From an uncultured Methylibium sp. (GTDB taxonomy: Bacteria; Pseudomonadota; Gammaproteobacteria; Burkholderiales; Burkholderiaceae_C), in NCBI RefSeq assembly GCF_902826655.1, contig NZ_CADEFR010000003.1, positions 105,363 to 169,362 of the forward strand: DNA of 64,000 nt, given 5' to 3'. Numbering within the stretch: the stretch's first letter is position 1; each line of letters begins with the position of its first letter. Under the pieces are notes generated by a model. The model saw nothing but the letters and a program-made list of their open reading frames with translations, did no database searches and was not told where the DNA came from. Both the position numbers and the translations under genes were made by a program. This document shows, in pieces, positions 589 to 16,218 of the stretch.

Positions 589-1734
589 TCAGGCGCGGGC
601 CGGCAGCAGGATCCGGCGGTCCACCGTGCGGATGTCGGTGTGGCCGGTGAAGGCCATCGTGATGTCCAGCTCGTGGCGGATCAGCTCCAGCGCCTTGCTC
701 ACGCCGGCCTCGCCCATCGCGCCCAGGCCGTAGAGGAAGGCGCGGCCGATCATCGTGCCCTTTGCGCCCAGCGCCACGGCCTTCAGCACGTCCTGGCCCG
801 AGCGGATGCCGCCGTCCATCCAGACCTCGATGCGCGAGCCGACCGCGTCGGCGATCTCGGGCAGTGCCGCGATCGACGAGGGCGCGCCGTCGAGCTGGCG
901 TCCGCCGTGGTTGGACACCACCAGCGCGTCGGCGCCGCTGTCGGCTGCGAGGCGTGCGTCCTCGACGTCCATCACGCCCTTGAGGATCAGCCGGCCGCCC
1001 CATTGCTTCTTGATCCACTCCACGTCGGACCAGTCCAGCCGCGGATCGAACTGCTCCTTGGTCCACGCCGACAGCGAGCTCATGTCGCTGACCCCCTTGG
1101 CATGCCCGACCAGGTTGCCGAAGCTGTGGCGCCGCGTGCCCAGCATGCCCAGGCACCAGCGCGGCTTGGTCATCAGGTTGAGGATGTTGGCCAGCGTCGG
1201 CTTGGGCGGCGCGGTCATGCCGTTCTTGATGTCCTTGTGGCGCTGACCCAGCACCTGCAGGTCCAGCGTCAGCACCAGGGCCGAGCAGCGGGCCGCCTTG
1301 GCGCGGTCCATCAGGCGCTCCATGAAGTCGCGGTCGCGCATCCAGTAGAGCTGGAACCAGAACGGCGCCTGGGTGTGGGCCGCGATGTCCTCGATCGAGC
1401 AGATGCTCATCGTCGACAGCGTGAAGGGAATGCCGAACTTCTCGGCCGCGCGGGCGCCGAGGATCTCGCCGTCGGCGTGCTGCATGCCGGTCAGGCCGGT
1501 CGGCGCGATCGCCACCGGCATGGCGACCTCCTGGCCGGCCATCGTGGTGCGCAGCGTGCGGCCCTCCATGTTGACGGCGACGCGCTGGCGCAGCTTGAAG
1601 GCACGGAAGTCGGCCTCGTTGGCGCGGTAGGTGCTCTCGGTCCAGGAGCCCGAGTCGGCGTAGTCGTAGAACATGCGCGGGACGCGCCTCTCGGCCAGGA
1701 CGCGCAGGTCCTCGATGCAGGTGATGACGGGCAT
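589..1734 (-). CDS. lldD: FMN-dependent L-lactate/alpha-hydroxyacid dehydrogenase
   Basis: A 381-residue protein of the FMN-dependent alpha-hydroxyacid dehydrogenase family, the usual LldD length. The barrel signatures are present: GLTGMQHADGE near the N-terminus, the FMN-binding lysine in RLILKGVMDVEDA, the active-site histidine and arginine in VVSNHGGRQLDGAPSS, and the phosphate-binding DGGIRSGQDVLKA. These enzymes oxidise L-lactate (or a related 2-hydroxy acid) to the 2-keto acid and pass electrons to the respiratory chain from the inner face of the membrane. The ATG at 1732-1734 (MPVITCIEDLRVLAERRVP) was chosen because the reading frame upstream of it has no family similarity. Exact substrate, lactate versus mandelate or glycolate, cannot be fixed from sequence. 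Confidence 0.85.
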   Translation of the reverse strand: MPVITCIEDLRVLAERRVPRMFYDYADSGSWTESTYRANEADFRAFKLRQRVAVNMEGRTLRTTMAGQEVAMPVAIAPTGLTGMQHADGEILGARAAEKFGIPFTLSTMSICSIEDIAAHTQAPFWFQLYWMRDRDFMERLMDRAKAARCSALVLTLDLQVLGQRHKDIKNGMTAPPKPTLANILNLMTKPRWCLGMLGTRRHSFGNLVGHAKGVSDMSSLSAWTKEQFDPRLDWSDVEWIKKQWGGRLILKGVMDVEDARLAADSGADALVVSNHGGRQLDGAPSSIAALPEIADAVGSRIEVWMDGGIRSGQDVLKAVALGAKGTMIGRAFLYGLGAMGEAGVSKALELIRHELDITMAFTGHTDIRTVDRRILLPARA

Positions 1735-1867
1735 GGGAGCTTCCTTGTCGGGCCGCCATTCTGGGGCAGCCGGCGCGTGGGACACTCTCGGCCTCGCGCC
1801 GGCCCCTGCCCGGGCCGTCGGCGCGGCTGTCCGGTGAAAGCGCCACAAGCGCATGGGAGTTCGAACG

Positions 1868-3019
1868 ATGCCGATCCGTCGTCCCTGCGGGCCCTGGCCC
1901 GTGCTGTGCCTGCTGAGCCTGGCACTCGTTGCCTGCGGCAAGGACCCCGCCGCCCAGCCGGCCGCGACGGCCGCCAAGCCGACCGCGCCGGCCCTGCTGC
2001 TGGCGCCCGAGGACCTGCGCACCGTGAGCATGAGCCCGCAGGCGCTGGGCCCGGTGATCACCGGCTCCATCCAGCCCGAGAAGCGCGCCGACCTGCGTGC
2101 CGAGGTGTCGGCCGTCGTGCTGCAGGTGCTCAAGGAAAACGGCGATACCGTGAAGCAGGGCGACCTGCTGGTGCGTCTGGACGACACCTCGATCCGCGAC
2201 AGCCTGGCGTCGGCCGAGGAAGCGACGCGCGCCGCCGGCCAGGCCCACGACCAGGCCGAGCGCCAGGTGCAGCGGCTCAAGACGCTGCAGGCCCAGGGCA
2301 TGCTGTCGATGCAGGCGCTGGAAGACGCCGAGATCCGCCGCAACAACGCGCAGAGCGAGCTGGTCGCGGCCCGCGCCCGCGGCGTGTCGGCGCGCCAGCA
2401 GCTGCGCCGCACCGAGGTGCGGGCGCCCTTCGCCGGCATGGTCAGCGAGCGCAAGGTCTCGGCCGGCGACACCGCCCAGATCGGCAAGGAGCTGGTCAAG
2501 GTGATCGACCCGTCGAGCATGCGCTTCGAGGGCCTGGTGTCCGCCGACCGCATGCACGAGGTGAAGCTCGGCCAGGCGGTGAGCTTCCGGGTCAGCGGCT
2601 ACCCGCAGGCCCGCTTCACCGGCCAGGTGAAGCGCGTCGACGCCGCAGCCAACGCGACGACGCGGCAGGTCGAGGTGCTGGTTGGTTTCCCCGCCAAGGA
2701 CGGTCCGCAGACCGCCGGCCTGTACGCGGAAGGGCGCATCCAGACCGGCGGCGGCGGTGCGCTGATGCTGCCCGACGCGGCCGTGCAGCGCAGCGCCGAC
2801 GCGGCGCATGTCTGGCGCGTCAAGGACCGCAAGCTGGCCAGGGTGGCGGTGCAGCTGGGCGAGCGCGATGCGCGCCGCGGCGAATACCCGTTGCTGGGCG
2901 GCCTGGCCGATGGCGACCAGATCCTGCGCAACCCGGGCAGCAACCTGGTCGACGGCCAGGCGGTCGAGTTCGCCAGCGCCACCGCGGGCAGCGCCGCGTC
3001 GGCCGCCGGCGGCGGCTGA
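1868..3019 (+). CDS. RND efflux periplasmic adaptor lipoprotein (first system)
   Basis: Membrane fusion protein of a tripartite RND pump. The N-terminus has a lipoprotein signal with lipobox LALVAC, so the mature protein should be anchored by a lipidated cysteine. A biotinyl-lipoyl half-motif (RADLRAEVSAVVLQVLKENGDTVKQG) is followed by a helical hairpin rich in Ala, Gln and Glu, the second lipoyl half (RRTEVRAPFAGMVSERKVSAGD) and beta-barrel/membrane-proximal domains. It lies 21 bases upstream of the RND permease gene, so the two form an operon. No outer-membrane factor gene follows, so the pump probably borrows a TolC-like channel from elsewhere. The ATG at 1868 gives a standard signal peptide; an in-frame ATG at 1853 would add five residues. 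Substrate unknown. Confidence 0.85.
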   Translation: MPIRRPCGPWPVLCLLSLALVACGKDPAAQPAATAAKPTAPALLLAPEDLRTVSMSPQALGPVITGSIQPEKRADLRAEVSAVVLQVLKENGDTVKQGDLLVRLDDTSIRDSLASAEEATRAAGQAHDQAERQVQRLKTLQAQGMLSMQALEDAEIRRNNAQSELVAARARGVSARQQLRRTEVRAPFAGMVSERKVSAGDTAQIGKELVKVIDPSSMRFEGLVSADRMHEVKLGQAVSFRVSGYPQARFTGQVKRVDAAANATTRQVEVLVGFPAKDGPQTAGLYAEGRIQTGGGGALMLPDAAVQRSADAAHVWRVKDRKLARVAVQLGERDARRGEYPLLGGLADGDQILRNPGSNLVDGQAVEFASATAGSAASAAGGG

Positions 3020-3040
3020 CGGCGGCAAGGAGGAGCGGCC

Positions 3041-6000
3041 ATGTTCCTGTCGGACTTCAGCATCAAGCGGCCGATCGCGACCATCGCGATCATCATCGCG
3101 CTGATGGCGCTGGGCCTGCTGGCCCTGAAGAAGCTGCGCGTCAACCAGATCCCCGATGTCGAGCAGCCGATGCTCGCGGTCAGCATCGACTACCCCGGCG
3201 CCTCGCCCGACACCGTCGAGCGCGAGGTCATCAACCGCATCGAGAAGACGCTCAACAGCATCCCCGGCGTCGACAAGATCAACGCGACGGCCAACGAGGG
3301 CAACGCGCGCTTCCTGCTGTTCTTCGTGTTCAGCAAGAACATGATCGAGGCCGCCGAGGAGGTGCGCAATGCCATCGGCACGGTGCGCTACAAGCTGCCG
3401 GTCGAGATGCGCGAGCCGGTGCTGCGGCGCGTCGACCCCGGGGCCCGGCCGATCGTGCAGATCGCGCTGTCCTCGACCTCGCAGAGCCATGCCGAGATCT
3501 CGCGGCTGGCCGAGGACGAGCTGGCCGATCGCTTCCGGGCGATCCCGGGTGTCGCGATCGTCGACGTCAGCGGTGCGCTGAAGCGCGAGCTGAGCGTGCT
3601 GCTGCGCGCCGAGAAGCTGCGCGAGTACAACGTCTCGGTCACCGAGGTCGTCAACGCCTTGCGCGCGCAGAACGCCACCGCGCCGGTCGGCAAGGTGCGC
3701 GGCAGCCTGCAGGACCAGAGCATCCGGCTGGTCGGGCGCATCGAGGTGCCGGCCGACTTCGAGCAGGTCGTGGTGGCGCGGCGCGGCGAGGAGACCGTGC
3801 GCCTCGGCCAGCTGGCGGTGGTGCGCGACGGCTTCGCCGAGCTGACGACCTTCAGCGTGCGCAACGGCCAGCCGAACGTCGGCATCTCGCTGACGCGCTC
3901 GCGCGACGCCAGCACCGTGTCGGTGGCCAAGGAGGTGCGCACGCTGGTGGCCGACATCGCCCGGGGCCTGCCCGAAGGCACGCGCCTCGTCATCACCGAG
4001 GACGGCGGCGAGGACGCCCAGAGCAGCCTCAACAACGTGATCCATGCGCTGGTGTTCGGCGCCGGGCTGACGGTCTTCGTGGTCTACCTGTTCCTCAACT
4101 CCTGGCGCTCGACGCTGATCACGGCGCTGAGCCTGCCGACCTCGGTGATCGCGGCCTTCATCGCGGTGTGGCTGTGCGGCTTCACGCTCAACTTCATGAG
4201 CCTGCTGGGCCTGTCGCTGGCGATCGGCGTGCTGATCGACGACGCCATCGTCGTGCGCGAGAACATCGTGCGCCACATGGAGCGCGGCGAGGACCGCCGC
4301 ACCGCGGCGCTCAACGGCACGGCCGAGATCGGCCTGGCGGTGATGGCCACCACCTTCTCCATCGTCGCGGTGTTCGTGCCGGTGGCCTTCATGCCGGGCG
4401 TGTCGGGCGAGTGGTTCCGGCCCTTCGCGCTGACCGTCGTGGCCTCGGTGATGGTGAGCCTGTTCATCTCGTTCACGCTCGACCCGATGCTGTCGGCCTA
4501 CTGGGGCGATCCGCCGGGCCACCACGAGGCGCCCCGGCGCGGCATCAGCCGCTGGCTGGCGACCTTCAACGACTGGTTCGACCGGCAGGCCGACCGCTAC
4601 GGCCGCGTCATCGCCTGGGCGCTGCATCACCGCACCTGGATGTTCGTGTTCGGCTTCGGCAGCTTCGTGCTGGCCCTGGTGCTGCAGGCGACGGTCGGCG
4701 GCTCCAGCTTCCTGCCGGCCTCGGATGCCGGCGTGCTGGCGATCGAGGTGCGCACGCCGTCCAGCAGCAGTCTCGAGTACGCGCGGCTCAAGATGGAGAG
4801 CGCCGCCGTGCAGGCGCGCAGCGTGCCGGAGACCGTCGCGACCAACAGCTACGTCAACCCGGGCGGCGGGCGCATCTACGTCGACATCGGCAAGAGCACC
4901 GAGCGCAAGCGCTCGGCCGAGCAGATCGCCGTCGACCTGCGGGCGCGGATGCAGCGGCTGGTGGGCGCCGAGTACACGGTCATCGACGACCTGAACAACG
5001 GCGTGCAGAAGCCGGTGCAGATCCGCTTCCACGGCAGCGACTCGCGGCAGCTGCTGGCGCTGACCAGCGAGTTCATGGAGAAGCTGCGCAAGGTGCCTGG
5101 CGCGACCGACGTCGGCCTGTCCGAGCAGGACCCGCAGGACGAGCTGAAGATCGAGCTGGACCGCGGCCTGGCCAACGCACTGGGCATCTCGGCCGGCGAC
5201 GCCGCGCAGGCGCTGCGCGTCGCCTTCGCCGGCGTCGAGGTGGGCGACTGGGTCGACCCCTCCGGCGAGACGCGCGACGTGGCGGTGCGCCTGCATCCCG
5301 ACGACCGGGTGGACGCGGCCAACATCGAGCGGCTGCCGATCGCCGTGGCCGGCAGCGGCCGCATGGTCGTGCCGCTCGAGCAGATCGCCAGCGTCAGCAT
5401 GGGCAAGGCGCCGTCGAAGATCGAGCATGCCGACGGCAAGCGGATGATCGCCGTGTCGGCCAATGCGCAGGGCCGCTCGCCGGGCGAGGTGACGGCCGAC
5501 GCGCTGAAGCTCGCGCGCGCGATGGACTTCCCGCCCGGCTACGGCCTCGAGCTGGCCGGCGCCTCGCGCGACCAGCAGGAGGTGTTCTCGGAGATGGGGA
5601 TCGCACTCGTGATGGGCGTGGCGCTGATGTACCTGGTGCTGGTGGTGCAGTTCGGGTCGTTCACCGCGCCGCTGCCGGTGATGCTGTCGCTGCCGCTCAG
5701 CCTGATCGGCGTGGTGCTTGCGCTGCTGGTGACCAAGGGGACGCTGAACCTGATGAGCTTCATCGGCATCATCATGCTGGTGGGCCTGGTGGCGAAGAAC
5801 GGCATCCTGCTGATCGACGCGACACGCAGCGCCGAGGCGCGCGGCGTCGAGCGCGAGGAGGCGCTGATGGCCGCCGGCCGCCAGCGCCTGCGGCCCATCC
5901 TGATGACGACCTTCGCGCTGATCGCCGGCATGCTGCCGGTGGCCATCGGCGTGGGCGAGGGCGGCGAGTTCTACCGGCCGATGGCGGTCGCCATCATTGG

Positions 6001-6259
6001 CGGCACGCTGACCTCGACGCTGCTGACGCTGCTGGTGATCCCGAGCTTCTACGACAGCATCGAGATCTCGCGCGAGCGTGCCGCGGCCAAGTTCCGCGGC
6101 CGTGCGGCGCGCTGGTCGGCCTTCCCGGCCTTCGTCGTCACGCTGGTCGAGGCGGTGCTGACGCTGCTGATGCTGCGCGCTGTCTGGCGGCTGCTGGTGC
6201 GCGGCGGCGCGGCGCTGCGGCGGCGGTTGACCCGCCGCCAGGGGCCGCAGCCGGCCTGA
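3041..6259 (+). CDS. RND efflux permease (AcrB/HAE1-type)
   Basis: A 1072-residue inner-membrane proton/drug antiporter subunit of the AcrB type. It begins LSDFSIKRPIATIAIIIA, the usual first transmembrane helix. The proton-relay residues are visible: the Asp pair of TM4 in GVLIDDAIVVRENI and the Lys of TM10 in VGLVAKNGILLIDATRS. The two periplasmic porter repeats and twelve transmembrane helices expected of the family fit the length. An extra hydrophobic segment and an arginine-rich tail follow TM12 (from about residue 1020). A GGAGGAG-type ribosome site sits just before the start. Its partner is the adaptor immediately upstream. Substrates cannot be predicted, since the porter domain varies widely between pumps. 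Confidence 0.88.
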   Translation: MFLSDFSIKRPIATIAIIIALMALGLLALKKLRVNQIPDVEQPMLAVSIDYPGASPDTVEREVINRIEKTLNSIPGVDKINATANEGNARFLLFFVFSKNMIEAAEEVRNAIGTVRYKLPVEMREPVLRRVDPGARPIVQIALSSTSQSHAEISRLAEDELADRFRAIPGVAIVDVSGALKRELSVLLRAEKLREYNVSVTEVVNALRAQNATAPVGKVRGSLQDQSIRLVGRIEVPADFEQVVVARRGEETVRLGQLAVVRDGFAELTTFSVRNGQPNVGISLTRSRDASTVSVAKEVRTLVADIARGLPEGTRLVITEDGGEDAQSSLNNVIHALVFGAGLTVFVVYLFLNSWRSTLITALSLPTSVIAAFIAVWLCGFTLNFMSLLGLSLAIGVLIDDAIVVRENIVRHMERGEDRRTAALNGTAEIGLAVMATTFSIVAVFVPVAFMPGVSGEWFRPFALTVVASVMVSLFISFTLDPMLSAYWGDPPGHHEAPRRGISRWLATFNDWFDRQADRYGRVIAWALHHRTWMFVFGFGSFVLALVLQATVGGSSFLPASDAGVLAIEVRTPSSSSLEYARLKMESAAVQARSVPETVATNSYVNPGGGRIYVDIGKSTERKRSAEQIAVDLRARMQRLVGAEYTVIDDLNNGVQKPVQIRFHGSDSRQLLALTSEFMEKLRKVPGATDVGLSEQDPQDELKIELDRGLANALGISAGDAAQALRVAFAGVEVGDWVDPSGETRDVAVRLHPDDRVDAANIERLPIAVAGSGRMVVPLEQIASVSMGKAPSKIEHADGKRMIAVSANAQGRSPGEVTADALKLARAMDFPPGYGLELAGASRDQQEVFSEMGIALVMGVALMYLVLVVQFGSFTAPLPVMLSLPLSLIGVVLALLVTKGTLNLMSFIGIIMLVGLVAKNGILLIDATRSAEARGVEREEALMAAGRQRLRPILMTTFALIAGMLPVAIGVGEGGEFYRPMAVAIIGGTLTSTLLTLLVIPSFYDSIEISRERAAAKFRGRAARWSAFPAFVVTLVEAVLTLLMLRAVWRLLVRGGAALRRRLTRRQGPQPA

Positions 6260-6274
6260 GCGGCGCCGACGCGC

Positions 6275-6850
6275 TCAGCCCAGGCCCAGCGGCGCCGGCA
6301 CCAGGCGCACGATGTGGCTGAACAGCGCCGCGTACTCGGCTGCCGGCGCATGCCCCAGCAGCGGATCGTCGTTGCTCGAGAACGCCGCGTCGAGCAGGGC
6401 CCAGTCGCCGGCCGTCAGCACCTGCTGCGCCAGCGGCAGCACCTCCTGCTCCTCCAGCCGCATGTGGGCGAGATAGAAGTCGACGTAGGCCTGCGCTGCC
6501 TGCTCGAACGCGTCGCGCCGCGGGGTGCCCATCATCTCGAAGGCGATCAGCGCATGCTCCAGTTCGCGCGTCGCGCGCTCGCCCTCGCCGTGCTCGCGGT
6601 CCAGGCGATCCAGGACCCGGTGGCCTTGCGCGCTGCGCGCCCGCAGCAGCGGGAACAGCAGCGTCGACTCCTTGGCGTGGTGCAGGCGCTCGGGAAACTC
6701 GGTGATGTAGAAGAGCATCGCGCGCAGGGCCCGGAAGTCGGGCGCCGTGCCGTCGCGCCGGTGCTGCGCCAGCAGCAGCGACACGGTGCGCAGCATCGCC
6801 GCGAGCGAGGCGTGCTCGTCGCGGATCACCCGCAGGGCAGCATGTTCCAT
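6275..6850 (-). CDS. Hemerythrin HHE-domain protein
   Basis: A 191-residue four-helix hemerythrin-like protein. Typical ligand positions are seen: H12 in VIRDEHASL, the HHAKES pair (FPERLHHAKESTLLFPLL), DREHGEGE, and a late H-x3-E in LAHMRLEEQEVLPLA. Proteins of this family bind a non-haem diiron centre and sense, store or react with oxygen, NO or peroxide in the cytoplasm. It starts 25 bases after the stop of the AurF-like oxygenase gene on the same strand, so the two are very likely co-transcribed from the FNR-type promoter upstream of the oxygenase. Its 3' end is 15 bases from the end of the convergent RND permease gene. Confidence 0.8.
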   Translation of the reverse strand: MEHAALRVIRDEHASLAAMLRTVSLLLAQHRRDGTAPDFRALRAMLFYITEFPERLHHAKESTLLFPLLRARSAQGHRVLDRLDREHGEGERATRELEHALIAFEMMGTPRRDAFEQAAQAYVDFYLAHMRLEEQEVLPLAQQVLTAGDWALLDAAFSSNDDPLLGHAPAAEYAALFSHIVRLVPAPLGLG

Positions 6851-6875
6851 GGGCGAATCCTTCCCTTCCGTCCGC

Positions 6876-7742
6876 TCACAAGGCCGGGCGCTCGGCCAGC
6901 ACGCCGGTGCGCAGCAGGTAGCCGACCAGCTTCTCCGAGGCGCGGACGCGGTGCGCGACGGCGGCCGGGTGGCCGATGGCGGCCTGGCGCACCTCGTAGG
7001 CGTCCGCGATGCCGGCGTCGCGGTAGGCCGCGGGGTTGTAGTACTCGCCCCAGCAGGCGCGCAGGTAGTCGCCGAGCCAGCGCCGGAACGCCGCCAGCGC
7101 GTCGGCGTCCCAGCCCGGCGCGTGGCGCTCGAAGAGCTCGGCCAGGTGCAGCCGCCCGAAGGCGAGGTGACGGGCCTCGTCGATGTGGTGGACCTGGTTG
7201 ATGCGGCGCGTCAGCGCGTCGACGCGCTCGTCCTGCTCGATGACGACGTTGTAGAAGTCGCCCAGCTCCTCGACCACCATCGCCATGCAGAAGAACACGA
7301 CCTCCTCCTCGCCGGGCGCGAGCGGCCGCGGCGCGAGCGCCAGCTTCTTGTCCGGGTAGACCTTGCCGACGTAGCGGTGGCAGTACTCCCCGAACATCAC
7401 CATGTGCTTGTTCTCCTCGTCCAGGAAGTGATGCAGGTAGCCGGTGATCGGGCGGTTGTTGCTGCGCGCGTAGAGGCGATGCGCCAGACCCTGCACCAGC
7501 AGCCGCTCGCCGTGCAGGATCAGGCTGAAGACGTTGGCCATCTCGTGCAGGGCGAGCCGGTGGCGGCCGGCCTCGTCGAGCGCGTCCCAGGCCGGCGTGC
7601 CGTGGAGCGACACCAGCTCCGGCGACATCGCCCATGCCGCGTCATCCAGGCGCTCGGGCCAGTCGATGGCGCGGTAGACGTCGTAGAACTTCCGGCATGA
7701 CGCGCGCGACAGTCGATCGGCGATCTCCGAGGCGGTTTCCAT
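6876..7742 (-). CDS. AurF-like diiron oxygenase
   Basis: A 288-residue helical protein of the AurF (p-aminobenzoate N-oxygenase-like) diiron family. The iron-ligand pattern is complete: E79 in [10 protein letters not shown]110-x2-H113 in DEENKHM, E158/E159 in [10 protein letters not shown], and H185-x3-E189-x2-H192 in [11 protein letters not shown]. Enzymes of this fold activate O2 for N- or C-oxygenation or desaturation in the cytoplasm; the substrate here is unknown. Upstream is a well-formed FNR/Anr box with a matching -10 element, pointing to induction at low oxygen. The neighbouring start of the pufL remnant is only 38 bases away on the opposite strand. The next gene downstream is a hemerythrin, another diiron protein. 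The ATG at 7742 starts just before conserved sequence. Confidence 0.8.
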
Positions 7743-7773
7743 GCGACGGGGGGCTCCAGGCAGGGGGCAAGAG

Positions 7774-7822
7774 ACGTCCGATGCTAGGAAGCGACCCTCG
7801 CGACAGGGCTGATCTGGATCAA
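7774..7822 (-). promoter_or_regulatory. FNR/Anr-type class II promoter of the diiron oxygenase-hemerythrin operon
   Basis: The box CTGAT-CTGG-ATCAA at 7809-7822 differs from the FNR consensus TTGAT-N4-ATCAA at one base. Read on the minus strand, exactly 22 bases after the box lies TAGCAT (7786-7781), a fair -10 hexamer. A start of transcription near 7774 would put the box centre at -41.5, the spacing required for FNR-activated class II promoters. The start codon follows about 30 bases later. The box lies inside the foreign leader of the truncated pufL frame, which shows that this stretch belongs to the oxygenase gene and not to pufL. Confidence 0.65.
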
Positions 7823-8410
7823 GGCACGAGCGCCCGGGGCTCCTGGCAGCTCATCACGGTCTGCGCGATCGGCGCCTTCGGATCCTGGGCGCTGCGCGAG
7901 GTCGAGATCTGTCGAAAGCTCGGCATCGGCTACCACGTGCCCTTCGCGTTCAGCTTCGCGATCCTGGCCTACGTGACGCTGGTCGTGATCCGCCCGGTGC
8001 TGATGGGCGCCTGGGGCCACGGCTTCCCCTACGGGATCATGAGTCACCTGGACTGGGTGTCGAACACCGGCTACCAGTACCTGCACTTCCACTACAACCC
8101 GGCGCACATGCTGGGGGTGAGCTTCTTCTTCGCGACCTGCTTCGCGCTGTCGCTGCACGGCTCGCTGATCCTGTCGTCGACCAACCCGGCCCCGGGTGAG
8201 CCGGTCAAGACGGCCGAGCACGAGAACACCTTCTTCCGCGACGCGATCGGCTACTCGATCGGCACCCTGGGCATCCACCGGCTCGGCCTGTTCCTGGCGC
8301 TGTCGGCGGTGTTCTGGAGCGCGGTGTGCATCGTCATCAGCGGGCCGTTCTGGACGCGCGGCTGGCCCGAGTGGTGGGGCTGGTGGCTGAACCTGCCGAT
8401 CTGGCGCTGA
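7781..8410 (+). pseudogene. pufL: Truncated reaction-centre L subunit gene, first ~80 codons missing
   Basis: From [14 protein letters not shown] (about base 7838) the translation is a clear photosynthetic reaction-centre L subunit. It starts at the equivalent of residue ~82, just before transmembrane helix B, and runs to a normal C-terminus ([19 protein letters not shown]). The bacteriochlorophyll, iron and quinone ligands of helices C-E remain: SHLDW (H153 equivalent), HYNPAH (H168/H173), LHG (H190), HEN (E212) and GIH (H230). The N-terminal arm and helix A are gone. In their place the frame offers about 19 unrelated residues from an ATG at 7781, overlapping the promoter of the divergent oxygenase gene. 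pufB and pufA, normally upstream, are absent. A protein of 209 residues instead of ~275 should not build a working L subunit. Confidence 0.85.
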
Positions 8411-8437
8411 CCCGCACCGAACGACGAGGAGACCAAC

Positions 8438-9412
8438 GTGGCCGAATACCAGAACCTCTTCACACGGGTGCAGGTTGCCGCACCCTCCTATGCCGGCGTG
8501 CCGCTGGCAGCAGGGTCCAAGAAGCGCGACGGCGTGCCCGCGCACATCCACCTGTTCGGCCGCCTCGGCGACGCGCAGATCGGGCCGATCTACCTGGGCT
8601 GGCTGGGGCTGATCTCGATCATCTGCTTCTTCGCGGCCTTCGAGATCATCGGCCTGAACATGCTGGCCTCGGTCAACTGGGACATCGTGCAGTTCGTGCG
8701 GCAGCTGCCCTGGCTGGCGCTCGAGCCGCCGCCACCCGAGTACGGCCTGAAGATGCCACCGCTCAACCAGGGCGGCTGGTGGCTGATGGCGGGCTTCTTC
8801 CTCACCGCGTCGATCCTGCTCTGGTGGGCGCGCATGTACCGCCGGGCCCGCGCGCTGGGCATGGGCACGCACGTGGCGTGGGCCTTCGCCGCGGCGATCT
8901 GGCTGTACCTGGTGCTGGGCTTCTTCCGCCCGATCCTGATGGGCAGCTGGGGCGAGGCGGTGCCGTTCGGCATCTTCCCCCACCTCGACTGGACCGCGGC
9001 CTTCTCGATCCGCTACGGCAACCTGTTCTACAACCCCTTCCACATGCTCAGCATCGCCTTCCTGTACGGGTCGGCGCTGCTGTTCGCGATGCACGGGGCG
9101 ACCATCCTCGCGGTCAGCCGCTTCGGCGGCGAGCGCGAGATCGAGCAGATCACCGACCGCGGCACCGCCAGCGAACGCGCCGCGCTGTTCTGGCGCTGGA
9201 CCATGGGCTTCAACGCGACGATGGAATCGGTCCACCGCTGGGCCTGGTGGTTCGCGGTGCTGTGCCCGCTCACCGGCGGCATCGGCATCCTGCTGACCGG
9301 CACGGTGGTCGACAACTGGTTCCTCTGGGCCGTCAAGCACGGCGTGGCGCCGGGCTATCCGGCGGTGTTTCCGGCGGTCACCGACCCCGCCCTGCTGGGA
9401 GTCAAGCCATGA
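8438..9412 (+). CDS. pufM: Photosynthetic reaction-centre M subunit
   Basis: Complete 324-residue M subunit of the purple-bacterial type II reaction centre, an inner-membrane protein with five helices. It binds half of the special pair, bacteriopheophytin and QA. Pigment and iron ligands are visible: PHLDW (accessory bacteriochlorophyll), NPFHM (special pair), AMHG and SVHRW (non-haem iron histidines), and an iron-ligand Glu in [11 protein letters not shown]. The start is a GTG at 8438 ([13 protein letters not shown]) behind GACGAGGAG. It begins 27 bases after the pufL stop and its own stop overlaps the pufC ATG (ATGA), so the puf order L-M-C is kept. The gene shows no damage, in contrast to its neighbours. 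Confidence 0.95.
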
Positions 9413-10814
9413 GCAAGCGCCTCGACAAGGGCCACGTCATCGTGCGGACGACACCGTGGCTCTTCCTGGCAGCCGCCGCGCTGCTGCTGTCCGGGTGCGA
9501 GCGGCCCCCGGTGGACACGGTGCAGCGCGGCTACCGCGGCACCGGCATGGAGCAGGTCTACAACCCGCGCATCGTCGCGACCCAGGCGGCGCTGAACACG
9601 TCGCCGGCCGCGCTGCCGGCAGCACCCGCGGACGGCCCCAAGGCCAAGGACACCTTCAAGAACGTGCAGGTCCTCGGCGACCAGAGCGTGGCCGAGTTCA
9701 CCCGCACCATGACGGCGATCACGGCCTGGGTCGCACCGAAGCAGGGCTGCGTCTACTGCCACGCCGCCGGCGAGGACCTGTCGTCGGACAAGCTCTACAC
9801 CAAGGTCGTCGCCCGCAAGGTGCTGCAGATGACGCAGCACATCAACGCCGACTGGAAGAACCACACGTCGCCGAGACCGGCGTCACCTGCTACACCTGCC
9901 ACCGTGGTCAACCGGTGCCGGCCGAGGTGTGGTTCACGAGTGCGCCGCAGAAGCAGGCGACGGCCCTGGTCGGCGATCGCGCCGGCCAGAACGTCGCGGC
10001 GGGCTCGGTGGCCTGGGCCTCGCTGCCCGAGGACCCGTTCACGCCCTTCCTGGCCAGCGGCAACGAGATCCGCGTCATCGGAACCACGGCGCTGCCGTCC
10101 GGCAACCGCCAATCGACCAAGCAGGCCGAGTGGACCTACGGACTGATGATGCACATGTCGCAGTCGCTGGGCGTGAACTGCACCTACTGCCACAACAGCC
10201 GTTCGTTCGCGCAGTGGGACGCCAGCACGCCGCAGCGCACCACGGCCTGGTACGGCATCCGCATGGCGCGCGATCTGAACAAGGCCTACATGCAGCCGCT
10301 GACCTCGGTCTTTCCGGCGTCTCGCAACGGGCCGACCGGCGATGTCGCCAAGGTCAACTGCGCGACCTGCCACCAGGGGGCCTACAAGCCGCTCTACGGC
10401 ACCAGCCTGCTGAAGGCGCACCCCGAGCTGAGCGGCGTCAAGGTGGCGGTGACGGCACCGGCCGCTGCCGCAGAACCGGCTGCCGCCCCCGCGTCGGTCG
10501 ACAGCGCGACGGTATTCTTCGCGGTCGGCTCGTCGGCGCTGACGGACGACGGCAGCAAGAGCCTCGCGGCGCTGGCCGAGTCCCTGAAGGCCAACGCGTC
10601 GGCCAAGGCGGTGATCTCCGGCTACCACTCGGCCTCGGGCAGCCTGAGCCAGAACCAGGAGCTCGCGAAGCAGCGCGCCTTCGCCGTGCGCGATGCGCTG
10701 AAGGCGGCCGGCATCGGCGCCGACCGCGTCGTGCTGGAGAAGCCGCAGTCGGCCGAAGCCAACCTGTCGGGCGAGGATCCGAAGGCGCGGCGCGTCGAGG
10801 TGGCGCTGAAGTAG
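9409..10814 (+). pseudogene. pufC: Tetrahaem reaction-centre cytochrome c with OmpA-like tail, frameshifted
   Basis: The gene starts at the ATG overlapping the pufM stop and encodes a lipoprotein signal (LLLSGC) and the first haem site CVYCH. The frame breaks at about 9862-9866, where CACAC carries two extra bases relative to the expected coding frame; removing them restores [14 protein letters not shown]. Without correction the product ends at 10146 (246 residues, one haem site). With it, four haem sites (CVYCH, CYTCH, CTYCH, CATCH) and about 467 residues result. PufC donates electrons to the oxidised special pair from the periplasm. After the fourth haem an Ala-rich linker leads to an OmpA-like domain of ~105 residues ([31 protein letters not shown]). 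Whether the shift is real or a sequencing error cannot be told from here. Confidence 0.85.
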
Positions 10815-10830
10815 CGTCCGAGTGGCGGCC

Positions 10831-10850
10831 GGCCCCGCAGCGGCGGGGCC
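10831..10850 (+). terminator. Possible stem-loop after pufC
   Basis: GGCCCCGC (10831-10838), a four-base loop and GGCGGGGCC-type complement (arm GCGGGGCC, 10843-10850) form a perfect 8-bp GC stem 17 bases after the pufC stop. There is no T-run, so it may only attenuate transcription into bphO, which starts 42 bases later. Confidence 0.4.
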
Positions 10851-10891
10851 GCTGCCTATGATGGGGGCTCCCCAACGCGACGGAGCGCCGT

Positions 10892-11575
10892 GTGAGCGAG
10901 CCCCTGGCCGAGCGCCTGAAGTCCGAGACCCACGAGCTGCACCGCGCCGCCGAGCGCAGCGCCTTCATGAGCGCGCTGCTGAGCGGCCGCCTGGAGCGCG
11001 GCGCGTATGCGCTGATGCTGCGCAGCCTGCACGAGATCTACGCGGCCCTCGAGGCCGGGCTGGACGCGCACCCGGGCCATCCGCAGCTCGCGCGCGTCTG
11101 GTGCCCGGCGCTGGCACGACGCGCGGCGCTGGAGCGCGACCTGTGCGGCCTGGCCGGCAAGGCGTGGGCGACCGAGCTCGACGCGCAGCCGGCGGCGCAG
11201 CAGCATGCCCGCCACCTGCGGCAGCTGGCCCGCGAGACGCCGGCCGCGTTGCTGGGCCACGCCTACGTGCGCTACCTCGGGGACCTGAGCGGCGGCCAGC
11301 TGCTCGCGCCCATCGTCGAGCGCAGCCTGCAGCTGCCGGCTGGCGACGCGACGCGCTTCTACGACTTCGGAGGTGTCTCGCTGGCCGCGCAGCGTGGCCG
11401 GGACTTCCGCGACGGCCTCGCGGCGATCGACGATCGCGGTCGCCTGGCCGACATGCTGGTGGCCGAGGCACGGCTCGCCTTCGGCCTGCATCTGCGCCTG
11501 TTCGACGAGCTCGCGCTCGCCGCCGATCTGGCGCGGCCTCAGCCTTCCGACGCCAGCCCGCGCAGTCGCGCGTAG
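10892..11575 (+). CDS. bphO: Heme oxygenase (biliverdin-forming) for the bacteriophytochrome
   Basis: A 227-residue heme oxygenase. The proximal haem ligand is H17 in ETHELHRAAE, and the distal helix glycine motif is YLGDLSGGQ. The enzyme opens haem to biliverdin IX-alpha, the chromophore of bacteriophytochromes. It lies 77 bases downstream of pufC on the same strand and converges with bphP, whose last 37 bases it overlaps; linkage of bphO to bphP is common. The start is the GTG at 10892, which gives the expected N-terminus (VSEPLAERLKSETHEL). If transcription comes from the puf operon, chromophore supply would depend on that damaged operon's promoter. Confidence 0.87.
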   Translation: MSEPLAERLKSETHELHRAAERSAFMSALLSGRLERGAYALMLRSLHEIYAALEAGLDAHPGHPQLARVWCPALARRAALERDLCGLAGKAWATELDAQPAAQQHARHLRQLARETPAALLGHAYVRYLGDLSGGQLLAPIVERSLQLPAGDATRFYDFGGVSLAAQRGRDFRDGLAAIDDRGRLADMLVAEARLAFGLHLRLFDELALAADLARPQPSDASPRSRA

Positions 11576-13725
11576 AGCGCCGCGGCGCGCTCGGTCGAGG
11601 CCTCCAGTTCCTCGAGCAGCGGCGCCACGCCCGGCAAGGCATTGCCGTCGGCGATGTCCATCGCCGCCAGGCTCGCGTTGGCGAGGATCGCGTTCATCAG
11701 TCCATCGGCCTGCGTCTCGCCGCGGCCGGCCGGCTGGCGCAGGCCGGTGCGCGACAGCGACTGCTCGAGATGCTGGCGCGCGGCAGCCGTGCGGCGGCTT
11801 TCACGCAGATCGTCGAGGATCAGGAAGTAGCCCAGCACCGAGCCGTCGCGCGCCGGAACGACCTCGGCGCGCAGGCCGACCGGCAGCGTGTCGCTGCCGC
11901 GCGCCAGGCTCAGCTCGCCGCGCCAGGGCTGCCGCTCCTGGCTCAGCTGGTCCACGGCCTTGCGCAGCAGCGCGGGCTGCGTGCACAGGGCGGCCAGGTC
12001 GTCGAGCGACGCGCTGCCGCTGCTCACGCCGGTCAGGTCGCGGAAGGCGTCGTTGACGAACAGCAGGTGCTGCGTCGCGTCGGCGATCGCGATCGGCTCC
12101 TTGGAGTGCGCGACGGTGGCGCGGATGCCGGCGAGCTGGTGCTCGGCGATCAGCAGGCGCACCGCGTTGACCTGCACCACGATGTCGATCAGCGCCTCGC
12201 CGAAGGCCCGCGCGAGCGCCTGTTCGCCCGTCGACCAGGGCAGGGCGGTGCCGCGCACGATCTCGGACCAGGCGGCGAAGGACCGCCGCGGCGACAGCTC
12301 CAGCGGGTCGTTGCCGACCACCGGCTTGGACGGATCGCCCGCCCAGGTGACGGTCAGCAACTGCGCCTTGCGGAACCAGACCAGGTAATCGGGCCGTGCC
12401 GCCGACAGCTTGACGGCCAGCACGCCGCTGGCGGTCGGCGTCAGCGAATCGAGCGCCGGGTTCTCTCGCGCCACCGAAGAGCAGCTGAACAGCCCGTCGA
12501 AGGACCGCGTGTCGATCCACTGCAGCAGCGCACGCAGCTCGGGTGTCGACGGCACCTCGCCCGAGGTCAGCAGCTCGCCCTCGTGATACAGCGCGGCGCC
12601 GGTCGCATCGAGCGGCTGCAGCAGCGTGCGCGGATTGCGGAACAGCGCCAGCCGCCAGTCGCCCTCGGTCGAGGTGGCCTCGACCAGGCGCTGCTCGAGG
12701 CGCCGCACCTGGATGGCGACCTGCGCATGGGCGTAGTTCTCGATCGCCGTGATGCGCGTCGAGATCACCTCGGCCAGCATGTCGGCCGCCGCGCGCACCG
12801 CAAAGCGCAGATTGCGCGGGCTGTAGTGGTGGCAGGCGATCAGACCCCAGAGCTTGCCTTCACGCACCAGCGACACCACCAGCGTCGCCGTCACGCCCAT
12901 GTTCTTCAGGTACTGCAGATGCAGCGGCGACATGCTGCGCAGCTGGCACAGCGACATGTCGAGGTCTTCGTCGCTGCCGCGCAGGCGCTGCGGCAGCAGG
13001 GGGGCGGCCTCGTAGTGCACGTCGGCCAGCACGCGCACGCGGTTGCGCAGGTAGAGCTCGCGGGCGCGCTGCGGGATGTCGGAGGCCGGGTAGTGATGAT
13101 CCAGCAGCGACTCCAGGCGCGGATCGCGCGCCTCGGCGATGATCTTGCCGTGGCCGTCGGGGTCGAACTTGTAGACCATCACGCGGTCGTAGCCGACCAG
13201 GTCGCGGAAGCAGCGCACCACCGAGTCGGCCAGCGTGCCGATGGTCGATGCATTGCTGAAGCGTTCGACGGCGGCGCCGAGCTGCTCGACCAGCCGGTCG
13301 TGGGGCAGGTCGACCGTCGGCAGGCTCGATGCCGTCGGCTCGATCTCGACGAGCAGCAGGCCGCGCGGCTCGCGGTGCAGGCAGCCCTCCCGGTCCGTCG
13401 CGCGGCCGTGGACGGCGATGCGACAGCGCAGCGGCGCCGGCTCCGACAGGTCGGCCGACGCGAGCTGGCGGCGTACCTGCGACTCGATGTCGCCGCCGAG
13501 CTCGGCCAGCTTCTGGCCCAGCAGCACCTCGGCCGGCACGCCCGCCAGCGCCTCGAGGTTGGCGCTCAGCTGCACGATGCGCAGCTCGGGCTCGCGCAAG
13601 GCCAGCAGCAGGCCGTGCGGCTGCACCGACCCGGCCAGGTGGATGAGCTCGCGCTCGCAGTTGCTCAGGTCGGCCTGGCCGAAGGGCGGGCTGGTCAGCG
13701 CGCTCACGGCCGGCTCAGGTTGCAT
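11539..13725 (-). CDS. bphP: Bacteriophytochrome, RpBphP1-like (PAS-GAF-PHY-PAS-helical output)
   Basis: A 728-residue red/far-red photoreceptor. Order: PAS with the biliverdin-binding C23 (LSNCERELIHLAGSVQPHG), GAF with PASDIPQRAREL (213-224) and H299/H300 in IACHHYSPRN, PHY with the tongue PRRSF (about 479-483), a second PAS (about 530-650), and a C-terminal helical segment (about 650-728). There is no HATPase domain or kinase H-box, so it should signal by protein contact, as known for BphP1 of Rhodopseudomonas palustris, which antagonises PpsR2. The gene overlaps the end of ppsR by 11 bases and is therefore translationally coupled to it. Biliverdin comes from the adjacent heme oxygenase. 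Confidence 0.9.
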   Translation of the reverse strand: MQPEPAVSALTSPPFGQADLSNCERELIHLAGSVQPHGLLLALREPELRIVQLSANLEALAGVPAEVLLGQKLAELGGDIESQVRRQLASADLSEPAPLRCRIAVHGRATDREGCLHREPRGLLLVEIEPTASSLPTVDLPHDRLVEQLGAAVERFSNASTIGTLADSVVRCFRDLVGYDRVMVYKFDPDGHGKIIAEARDPRLESLLDHHYPASDIPQRARELYLRNRVRVLADVHYEAAPLLPQRLRGSDEDLDMSLCQLRSMSPLHLQYLKNMGVTATLVVSLVREGKLWGLIACHHYSPRNLRFAVRAAADMLAEVISTRITAIENYAHAQVAIQVRRLEQRLVEATSTEGDWRLALFRNPRTLLQPLDATGAALYHEGELLTSGEVPSTPELRALLQWIDTRSFDGLFSCSSVARENPALDSLTPTASGVLAVKLSAARPDYLVWFRKAQLLTVTWAGDPSKPVVGNDPLELSPRRSFAAWSEIVRGTALPWSTGEQALARAFGEALIDIVVQVNAVRLLIAEHQLAGIRATVAHSKEPIAIADATQHLLFVNDAFRDLTGVSSGSASLDDLAALCTQPALLRKAVDQLSQERQPWRGELSLARGSDTLPVGLRAEVVPARDGSVLGYFLILDDLRESRRTAAARQHLEQSLSRTGLRQPAGRGETQADGLMNAILANASLAAMDIADGNALPGVAPLLEELEASTERAAALYARLRGLASEG

Positions 13726-15097
13726 CGCCCGTCCCGGGTCCGCGCCGGCGCTTCAGCGTGCGCGCGGTGATGCCCAGCAAGGCGGCCGCGGCCGCGACGT
13801 CGCCGCCGACGCGCTGCAGCGCCGCGTCGATCAGCTGCCGTTGCGCCCGTGCGTTGGCGTCGCGCAGCAGCGTGCCCAGGTCGGCCGTGCCCAGGCGCGC
13901 CGCGAGCGGCGTCAGCACGACGCTCTCGGGCTGCGGCTCGTCCGTGGCCCGGTCGACGAGCTTGAGCATCAGGCCCACGCACTCCTGGTCGCCTTCGGTC
14001 AGCAGGGCCGCCGACACATCGACGCGGGCGGCCGGCGCGCCGGCCGCCCGCAGCACCAGGCCGGCGCGATGCGCCAGGCCGTGGCGGCGGACCGCGGTCA
14101 GCAGCGATTCGATCTCGGCGGGCGCCAGGCCGGCACGCTCGCCGAGCTGCCGGCCCTTGAGCGCGCCCTCGTCGCCGGCGCGCAGCAAGTCGACGAAGGC
14201 CGGATTGGCGGCGAGGATGCGACCGCTCGAGTCGGTGACCACCACGCCCTCGTGCGCGCCGTCGACCAGCCGCGCCAGCGATCGACCGAGATCGAGCGGG
14301 CTGGCGGCCGCCCCTTCGGCCTGGCGCACGCGCACCAGCAGGTGCATCGCGCCGGCGCCGCGGAAGGGCGTGGCCGCGACGCTGGCACTGCCCACCTTGC
14401 CGGCCAGCCGCACGCGGATCTCGGCGGCGCGGCCGCCGGTACGCGCGGTCGTCAGCAACTCCTCGACCGCGCCGCGCGAGTGATGCTCGAAGCCGGCCAC
14501 CACGTCGTGCCCGGCCAGCTGATCGAGGCTCAGGTCGAACATCCGCGAGGCCGCCTCGTTGGCCTCGAGGATGCGCAGGCTGCCGGCGTCGACGATCATC
14601 ACCGCGTCGGTCGCCACCTGGAACAGCAGCCGGTAGCGCGACTCGGCCTGGCGTGCCGACCAGTAGCCGCGTTCCATCTCGCGCTGCGCATCGACGAAGC
14701 GCTGCTGGATCGCCGCGATCGCACGCAGGTCGCGGCCGGCCGCCAGCACCGGGCCGTGCTCGCCGAGCCGCACCGCGGCGTAGGCGACCGGGATGTGGTC
14801 GCCGCTGGATGACGGGTGGTTGACCTCGCGCCGGCGCGCCAGCCCGGTCGACGTGACATCGGCCAGCAGGCGCTCGATCTTGCCGCGGGTGTCGGCCGTC
14901 ACCGTGTCGACCCAGGGCCGGCCGACCCAGTCCCGCACCGCGGCCGACAGCGGCGCGGCGTGGCCCTGCGCGACGTTGCGGACCACGCCGTCGGCATCGA
15001 TCACCAGCGCGATGTCGCTGTCCAGCGACACGAAGGTCTGCGCCAGCTCGCGCGCCCACGGCGACAGGGCGGCGAGATCGGGGGCGTCATCCGGCAC
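13715..15097 (-). CDS. ppsR: PpsR/CrtJ-type photosynthesis repressor
   Basis: A 460-residue transcription regulator of the PpsR/CrtJ family: an N-terminal PAS-like domain (1-125), a glutamine-rich linker helix (about 128-158), PAS1 (about 160-270), PAS2 (about 275-385) and a Fis-type helix-turn-helix at the end (415-455, DVAAAAALLGITARTLKRRRG). The family represses bacteriochlorophyll, carotenoid and light-harvesting genes at TGT-N12-ACA sites. Only one cysteine is present (C373, in PAS2); none is in the DNA-binding helix, so the two-cysteine redox switch described for some homologues cannot form. Coupling to bphP suggests light control through protein contact. The start is a GTG at 15097; no TGT-N12-ACA site is seen just upstream. 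Confidence 0.9.
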   Translation of the reverse strand: MPDDAPDLAALSPWARELAQTFVSLDSDIALVIDADGVVRNVAQGHAAPLSAAVRDWVGRPWVDTVTADTRGKIERLLADVTSTGLARRREVNHPSSSGDHIPVAYAAVRLGEHGPVLAAGRDLRAIAAIQQRFVDAQREMERGYWSARQAESRYRLLFQVATDAVMIVDAGSLRILEANEAASRMFDLSLDQLAGHDVVAGFEHHSRGAVEELLTTARTGGRAAEIRVRLAGKVGSASVAATPFRGAGAMHLLVRVRQAEGAAASPLDLGRSLARLVDGAHEGVVVTDSSGRILAANPAFVDLLRAGDEGALKGRQLGERAGLAPAEIESLLTAVRRHGLAHRAGLVLRAAGAPAARVDVSAALLTEGDQECVGLMLKLVDRATDEPQPESVVLTPLAARLGTADLGTLLRDANARAQRQLIDAALQRVGGDVAAAAALLGITARTLKRRRGPGTGDAT

Positions 15098-15217
15098 GTG
15101 GCTCGCGTGGCTCCTTCGGGGGGCGTGGCCGAGCCCGGCCGCGCATCCCTGCCAGTTTAGGCGGGGGTCGGGGCCGGGGTGCCTAGGGGATGCGCGGGTC
15201 GGCGGACCGCAGCGTCG

Positions 15218-15235
15218 GCGTCATCAAGCCGTCAT
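15218..15235 (+). promoter_or_regulatory. Candidate PHO box upstream of ppk2
   Basis: GCGTCAT-CAAG-CCGTCAT is a pair of direct heptamers with an 11-base period, close to the PhoB consensus CTGTCAT-N4-CTGTCAY (5 and 6 of 7 matches). It lies 50 bases before the ppk2 start codon, a sensible place for activation of a polyphosphate gene in low phosphate. In high-GC DNA one such match could be chance. Confidence 0.4.
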
Positions 15236-15285
15236 CGGCTCGCCCCGAACATCGAAAACTCCCCAACTCGACCGCATCGGACCTC

Positions 15286-16218
15286 ATGGACCGGCAGCCT
15301 GCCCCGAGCGTCGACCACGACGAACTCGTCCGACGCATCGAGAACGACCTGATCGACGGCTACGACGAGGAGTTCGAGCTGGAGTTCGACGACCGCCAGC
15401 TCGAGGCGCTTGAACCCGGCGCCGGCGGCGACGAGGCGACGCGCCAGGTCGAACGGCGCCGCTACTTCCGTGAGCTCTTCCGCCTGCAGGGCGAACTGGT
15501 CAAGCTGCAGGACTGGGTCGCGGCGACCCGGCAGAAGGTCGTGATCGTGTTCGAGGGCCGCGACTCGGCCGGCAAGGGCGGGGCCATCAAGCGCATCACG
15601 CAGCGGCTCAACCCGCGCGTCTGCCGCGTCGTCGCGCTGCCGGCGCCCAACGACCGCGAACGCACGCAGTGGTACTTCCAGCGCTACGTGCAGCACCTGC
15701 CGGCCGGCGGCGAGATCGTGCTGTTCGACCGCAGCTGGTACAACCGCGCCGGCGTCGAGCGCGTGATGGGCTTCTGCAGCGAAGACGAGGTCGAGGAGTT
15801 CTTCCGCTCGGTGCCGGAGTTCGAGCGCATGCTGGTGCGATCCGGCATCCGGCTGATCAAGTACTGGTTCTCGATCACCGACGAGGAACAGCACCTGCGC
15901 TTCCTCGGCCGCATCCACGACCCGCTCAAGCAGTGGAAGCTGAGCCCGATGGACCTGGAGAGCCGCGTGCGCTGGGAGGCCTACACCAAGGCCAAGGAAG
16001 CGATGCTCGAGCACACCCACATCCCCGAGGCGCCGTGGTGGCTGGTGCACGCGGTGGACAAGAAGCGCGCGCGCCTGAACTGCATCGCGCACCTGCTGTC
16101 GCAGATGCCCTACGAGGCCGTGCCCAAGCCCCTGGTCGAGCTGCCGCCGCGCGTGCGCAACCCCGACTACACGCGCCAGCCGGTGCCGGCCGAGATGGTC
16201 GTGCCCGAGGTCTACTGA
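15286..16218 (+). CDS. ppk2: Polyphosphate kinase 2
   Basis: A 310-residue class I PPK2, a P-loop kinase that transfers phosphate between polyphosphate and nucleoside diphosphates in the cytoplasm. Walker A is FEGRDSAGKGGAIKR and the Walker B/lid region is LFDRSWYNRAGVERVMGFC; the DPLKQWKLSPMDLESRVRWE segment is also typical. The N-terminal extension is acidic. The ATG at 15286 (MDRQPAPSVDHDELVRR) fits the family length; the frame is open further upstream without similarity. It is divergent from ppsR, with a 188-base gap that contains a PHO-box-like repeat. The next gene starts 40 bases downstream and has no obvious functional link. Confidence 0.92.
   Translation: MDRQPAPSVDHDELVRRIENDLIDGYDEEFELEFDDRQLEALEPGAGGDEATRQVERRRYFRELFRLQGELVKLQDWVAATRQKVVIVFEGRDSAGKGGAIKRITQRLNPRVCRVVALPAPNDRERTQWYFQRYVQHLPAGGEIVLFDRSWYNRAGVERVMGFCSEDEVEEFFRSVPEFERMLVRSGIRLIKYWFSITDEEQHLRFLGRIHDPLKQWKLSPMDLESRVRWEAYTKAKEAMLEHTHIPEAPWWLVHAVDKKRARLNCIAHLLSQMPYEAVPKPLVELPPRVRNPDYTRQPVPAEMVVPEVY

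Follow-up and report, generated by a model that had tools for sequence, protein, structure and literature searches.

In Rhodobacteraceae, the scattered photosynthesis gene clusters (PGCs) have been explained by vertical descent with frequent losses and sporadic transfers (PMC6052148). A partial cluster has been reported in Sphingomonas aerolata PDD-32b-11 (PMC9584328), and in Bradyrhizobium clusters a bacteriophytochrome gene is found with the repressor gene ppsR (PMC10569730). No PGC relic of the kind described below was found in the passages of PMC12654162 and PMC12700997 that were searched. A literature search at the level of titles and the opening lines of abstracts found neither a Methylibium PGC relic nor a pufL gene without its 5' end. 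In Proteobacteria, arguments over whether scattered phototrophy arose by frequent loss or by repeated gain are usually based on trees.

The locus analysed here is part of a 64-kb stretch of DNA (the window) from an uncultured Methylibium species. The assembly is 4.22 Mb in 142 contigs (completeness 100, contamination 4.24), and the locus with both of its joins is found inside a single 169-kb contig. Positions 7844 to 15097 of the window are very probably the surviving middle of a PGC, left by deletions or rearrangements in a lineage that has recently become non-phototrophic. The features are as follows; G001 is a congener, probably Methylibium petroleiphilum PM1, and Root1272 is the congener used as the main reference.

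589-1737, minus strand: gene of presumed lactate-oxidase/LldD type, named from its sequence; right end of a block collinear with G001 (window -3676 to 1736)
1853-6259, plus strand: efflux pair, presumably a membrane-fusion protein (1853-3019) and an RND permease (3041-6259, annotated under the plasmid matches)
6275-6850, minus strand: hemerythrin-domain protein (PF01814, E 1.6e-16)
6876-7742, minus strand: AurF-type diiron N-oxygenase, divergent from the pufL remnant
7835-7844: left junction; clear pufL homology from the TGG codon at 7844-7846
7781-8410, plus strand: pufL remnant; ATG at 7781, then 21 unrelated codons and, from Root1272 residue 87 onward, the remainder of PufL
8438-9412, plus strand: pufM, full length
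9409-10814, plus strand: pufC, its frame shifted at 9863-9866 by a 2-base tandem insertion that three relatives lack
10892-11575, plus strand: bphO, heme oxygenase (PF01126, E 5.4e-54)
11539-13725, minus strand: bphP, bacteriophytochrome with PAS, GAF, PHY and PAS domains, kinase domain unmatched
13715-15097, minus strand: ppsR, full length (TIGR02040, 280.6 bits, cut-off 275.4)
15083-15311: right junction; cluster homology stops at 15082, PPK2 homology to congeners from 15312
15190-16218, plus strand: polyphosphate kinase 2 (PPK2), found elsewhere in Root1272 and G001, not beside the cluster site

PufL homology begins abruptly at 7844. The initial annotation estimated that pufL had lost about its first 80 codons; the number is close to 86. 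The Pfam match (PF00124) to the ORF at 7781-8410 spans profile positions 65 to 260 of 260, and the match to Root1272 PufL (274 aa) starts at the W of GGLWQLIT, residue 87. The 21 codons ahead of this W are unrelated to PufL. Solved L chains show homology from query residue 19 (residues 83-272 of 1aig_L are covered, for example). The gene product is not a full-length PufL: it lacks the N-terminal arm and first helix of the L subunit. Such a start is not seen in other species, in which the pufL match begins within 10 residues of the N-terminus at 77 of the 80 pufM-bearing loci and the contig ends inside or before pufL at the other three. Upstream, 38 bases separate the ATG of the remnant from the start of the AurF-type gene at 7742, which is the diiron oxygenase gene on the other strand recognized earlier as the new neighbour. 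The pufM, bphO, bphP and ppsR genes had been described as intact, and all four are indeed full length. The pufC gene had not been mentioned, and it is broken. Compared with Root1272, congener G005 and Variovorax, it carries two extra bases at 9863-9866 where the frame is lost; the first frame stops at 10146, and the second part, which ends in an OmpA-like domain, can be read through to 10814 in a different frame. The PufC translations of Root1272 and Variovorax J22R133 likewise extend over the region of this C-terminal domain (Pfam, 10515-10739 in the window), and G005 PufC stops before it. A reaction-centre cytochrome with an OmpA-like domain could possibly be tied to the cell wall.

Root1272 (NZ_LMDY01000003.1) contains a whole cluster in the order crt-bchXYZ-pufBALMC-bphO-bphP-ppsR-puhE-acsF-puhA-lhaA-bchM...bchN, in which bchZ, bchN, bchP, the light-harvesting (LH) and the reaction-centre genes were named by HMM and the other genes were recognised by inspection or from their position. 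In Variovorax J22R133 the gene order is the same over the 21 kb compared. Window 7844-15082 is collinear with Root1272 93452-86073 (77% DNA identity over a 7.5-kb alignment), and both ends fall inside the Root1272 cluster; the sole other match of the window in that cluster is between the window ppsR and a second ppsR. The middle of the cluster is kept and both sides are absent from the site; in Root1272 coordinates the missing puf/bchZ/crt side measures about 17.7 kb and the missing puh/bch side about 20 kb. The loss of the genes past ppsR is an addition to the initial annotation. Its proposal of a deletion that joined the remnant to a new neighbour is supported, but not its extent: a single removal of pufBA and the 5' end of pufL does not account for the two missing sides, the broken pufC and about 6 kb of intervening DNA before the pufL remnant.

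The rest of the cluster was searched for in the whole assembly. The reaction-centre family is found at the relic site only; three of six Methylibium genomes have any reaction-centre gene (this one and two of the five congeners). Light-harvesting proteins (PF00556) gave no match in the assembly among 27 candidates scored, extending to the entire genome sequence the absence of pufBA noticed in the window; family searches for bchZ and bchN gave none either. The same two congeners have 2 and 4 LH matches, and both bchZ and bchN were matched in them. A functional cluster, with LH1 pufBA and bacteriochlorophyll synthesis genes (judged by the bchZ and bchN families), is not encoded in this assembly. 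At the DNA level, 28.5 kb of the Root1272 cluster was used as query (66000-84000 and 93500-104000); positions 64001-65999 (tspO, 3' part of bchP), 84001-86072 (acsF, puhE) and 104001-107999 (crt genes) were compared with contig 3, which carries the window, and 108000-111127 was covered only at E 1e-60. Apart from matches shorter than 190 bases, the bch/puh half (66000-84000) found only the ppsR of the window itself, at 67% identity. The other half (93500-104000, with the 5' part of pufL, pufA, pufB, bchZ, bchY and part of crt) found only a dispersed 85-base repeat and matches shorter than 250 bases. This 85-base element is GC-rich and strongly folding and is located between bchY and bchZ of Root1272 (L013:11943-12028). 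Fifteen relatives at 77-86% identity are listed in the window's genome, and G001 has one near 3.03 Mb, so the element seems to be an intergenic repeat dispersed in the genus. Two possibilities, a second puf operon and the 5' part of pufL at another place, were considered and rejected, since neither was found in the assembly. Of the two outcomes that the initial annotation had offered, another puf operon or a recent loss of photosynthesis, the first is absent from the assembly and the second is supported. Because LH proteins, a whole L subunit and bacteriochlorophyll synthesis are all lacking, a type II reaction centre cannot be made, and we infer that no photosystem is produced. A collinear piece with abrupt ends and lesions, whose tested missing genes are found nowhere else in the assembly, has the features of a deletion relic.

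The sequence to the left of the relic provides information on its location. A 5.4-kb block ending at window position 1736 is collinear with G001 3,015,010-3,009,750, which is 49 kb from the cluster site in that genome (2,960,557). The Root1272 contig ends in the same LldD-type gene, 43.6 kb from its cluster, and G001 and Root1272 are collinear at both ends of the block-to-cluster interval. When placed in the same orientation, Root1272 and the window have first the LldD-type gene and then pufL to ppsR, on the same strands. Further copies of the LldD-type gene are present in the genus, but the collinear 5.4-kb block points to this copy. Since the block preceding the relic shares order and orientation with relatives in which it is 44-49 kb from the cluster site, the relic is probably in its old neighbourhood, as judged from gene order. 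In Root1272 (C3 154614-155731; L153:10614-11731), matches to the first 97 bases of the LldD-type gene occur both at the start of the gene and immediately ahead of it. The doubling seems to be present in G001 too, and the homology of the window to Root1272 and to G001 breaks off at one and the same point.

About 6 kb of efflux, hemerythrin and AurF DNA separates the pufL remnant from its former left neighbour, and in the five congeners this DNA has only partial matches of 66-77%; the AurF-type oxygenase itself has no match in them. A second AurF-type diiron oxygenase, 67% identical to 6876-7742, is found on contig 10 of the window's genome (G000:C10:37062-37922). A plasmid origin of 1750-7843 was examined and set aside as uninformative: 1015 plasmid records match at 60-90% identity and none covers 80% of the region. 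The pfp/tRNA-Thr edge of the Root1272 cluster is on contig 36 of the window's genome, not at the relic, and no cluster match was detected in the first 16 kb of that contig. One of the lineages must therefore have been rearranged, a result that counts against a simple deletion relic. Contig 36 has two tRNA-Thr(CGT) genes 2.7 kb apart (L171:4480-7230) and Root1272 has one tRNA-Thr at the edge of the cluster region; the pair is possibly an insertion site for mobile DNA. In the sequence examined, no repeats were found at either join beyond chance matches of 13-15 bases, and there is no G+C step at the joins. Two or more breaks, together with some rearrangement, are required to explain this arrangement.

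G001 shows another loss in the genus. It consists of two contigs with a 4.04-Mb chromosome. Around the cluster site its identity to Root1272 is 90-96%, and Root1272 66195-111127 is absent from it (44.9 kb; join at 2960555/2960560). At the edge of the join (2959072-2960591; L172:9072-10591) are tspO (PF03073) and an ORF that matches the BchP profile at positions 64-387 of 388, with its 5' end absent. This bchP ORF has stayed open, with a dN/dS of 0.09 against Root1272. Because part of bchP is kept, G001 has lost a cluster rather than never having had one.

The following course of events would explain the window. An ancestor of this Methylibium species would have carried the entire cluster, about 45 kb long. 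Through deletions or rearrangements with at least two breaks, one inside pufL and one just past ppsR, the pufBA, bch, crt and puh genes would have been removed and the efflux/hemerythrin/AurF genes and PPK2 brought beside the remaining piece. The surviving genes would be dead or dying, and the pufC frameshift would be a further lesion.

Synonymous distances (dS) between the window and Root1272 are 0.35 for pufM, 0.40 for the pufL remnant, 0.43 for bphP, 0.45-0.48 for pufC, 0.53 for ppsR and 0.71 for bphO. The comparison genes pepN, pfp and PPK2 gave 0.34, 0.34 and 0.54, after exclusion of window ORFs evidently in a non-coding frame (dS < dN, or dS of at least 1.8). These values are what inheritance of most of the piece together with the genome would give; the more distant bphO counts against the deletion-relic reading. 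In a pufLM tree, the window genome is not firmly grouped with Root1272 (supports 64 and 71), a point that also counts against this reading and makes the tree too weak to demonstrate such inheritance. At near-invariant positions (columns in which at least 97% of the other sequences agree), no changes were found at 143 positions of PufM and 93 of the PufL remnant (0 of 236 together). The other sequences have on average 1.2 changes in PufM and 1.0 (0.99) in PufL at these columns; the PufL mean is about 0.44 without one row (L106), a wrong match to a contig that starts at pufM and the source of 45 of the listed deviations. The 541 unchanged non-synonymous sites (91 of 93 PufL codons used) limit neutral drift to at most 0.0055 per site (95%), which is about 3% of the branch since the Root1272 split if that branch is half of the pufM synonymous distance. 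In branch models (for pufL and pufM, on 8 of the 11 aligned taxa), the omega of pufM was 0.070, the same as background. The values for bphP, ppsR and the second part of pufC likewise showed no rise, and the fits for bphO ran to a bound. The pufL remnant gave 0.120 versus 0.028 (2dlnL 6.70), as one of 18 foreground tests on six gene pieces, the strongest of which was a lowered omega in Variovorax pufM (8.78). Relaxed selection as a sign of decay was rejected: pairwise counts hinted at a raised pufM dN and the likelihood model gave background omega, and the rise in the pufL remnant was not relied on. The unchanged PufM and PufL and the background omega of pufM fit recency, with no positive sign of decay. 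A very recent loss is far more likely than persisting constraint, because bchZ and bchN are absent. Since no decay is seen, the age of the loss would be a small part of the divergence from Root1272, that is, recent on the scale of species divergence.

The lack of decay in PufL and PufM would also be expected if the real genome had the whole cluster and the contig contained false joins from assembly or binning. The joins are known from one assembly alone, with the contig number and contamination given above. Such an artefact is improbable, as it needs two false joins 7.3 kb apart in one 169-kb contig, neither of them at a repeat in the sequence examined or at a G+C step, an assembly with a completeness score of 100% would have to lack the remainder of the cluster, and the 2-base insertion in pufC is an independent lesion.

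The bphO-bphP-ppsR piece could have survived for another reason, as a working far-red light switch on other genes. The bphP product scores 355 bits with the NCBIfam BphP model, under its cut-off of 1040, and its Pfam domains score over theirs. Full-length bacteriophytochrome and PpsR genes are side by side, as in a BphP-PpsR light-control pair, and with the full-length bphO frame they could still specify a light-sensing repressor system. Branch omega is 0.120 for bphP and 0.089 for ppsR versus backgrounds of 0.091 and 0.114, differences that are not significant. Weighing against the switch, the loss seems too recent for relaxed selection to appear even in pufM, the bphO fit is uninformative, and PpsR-type sites (TGT-N12-ACA) are at chance level in the 64-kb window (3 versus 3.9 expected, no excess). 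Because the loss looks so recent, selection on bphP, bphO or ppsR is unreadable. There is accordingly a small chance that a recently non-phototrophic bacterium keeps a complete far-red switch of heme oxygenase, bacteriophytochrome and PpsR that would now control non-photosynthetic genes; if true, light sensing survives beyond the photosystem it evolved to control. The earlier remark that the light-sensing genes were being kept holds for their full length; so far their keeping is mere survival within the same fragment. One palindromic TGT-N12-ACA site is found at 15013-15030 inside the 5' coding part of ppsR, and the Root1272 equivalent (L037:16690-16707) differs at one base. Going by its position, this site may possibly serve self-regulation.

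It is very unlikely that the 7.3-kb piece alone was acquired from a phototrophic relative by a lineage that never had a full cluster: Variovorax and Rhizobacter sequences fall with Methylibium in the pufLM tree, so that clusters seem to move between genera, and the DNA at 1750-7843 is only partially matched in the five congeners, but the dS to Root1272 is within the range of the three housekeeping genes, the piece follows the left block in the order and orientation seen in the relatives, and reaction-centre genes are present in two of the five congeners with a deletion relic in a third; we infer deletion rather than partial gain.

With the window read as the remains of a lost cluster, the cluster is found in one genus whole in Root1272, reduced by 44.9 kb in G001, where tspO and a cut bchP remain, and as a fresh relic of its middle in the window. 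Because edge genes are cut, the direction of change can be read directly, and the relic shows what the loss of photosynthesis looks like soon after the event. The Root1272 cluster shares genes, order and orientation with the window from pufL to ppsR and differs in that its pufL is full, its pufC is unshifted and the remaining cluster genes are present. G001 resembles the window in that the cluster was lost and an edge gene was cut at its 5' end (bchP in G001, pufL in the window), and differs in that what survives is the other end of the cluster, with flanks that have kept their position. S. aerolata PDD-32b-11 likewise has a partial cluster that includes ppsR, and puf does not occur in the text of PMC9584328; unlike the window, the survivors there are bchI, bchD, bchO, bchF, bchG, ppaA, ppsR and tspO, and the passage on them in that paper does not describe broken genes. 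The losses in Rhodobacteraceae were inferred from trees, and the main text of PMC6052148 contains the terms pseudogene, relic and vestig zero times. The Bradyrhizobium BphP-PpsR pair is encoded within the cluster as described in PMC10569730, as is the pair here, but in the window the genes that the pair would control are gone. Compared with these systems, the Methylibium relic is a clear, recent and instructive example of an already known kind of event.
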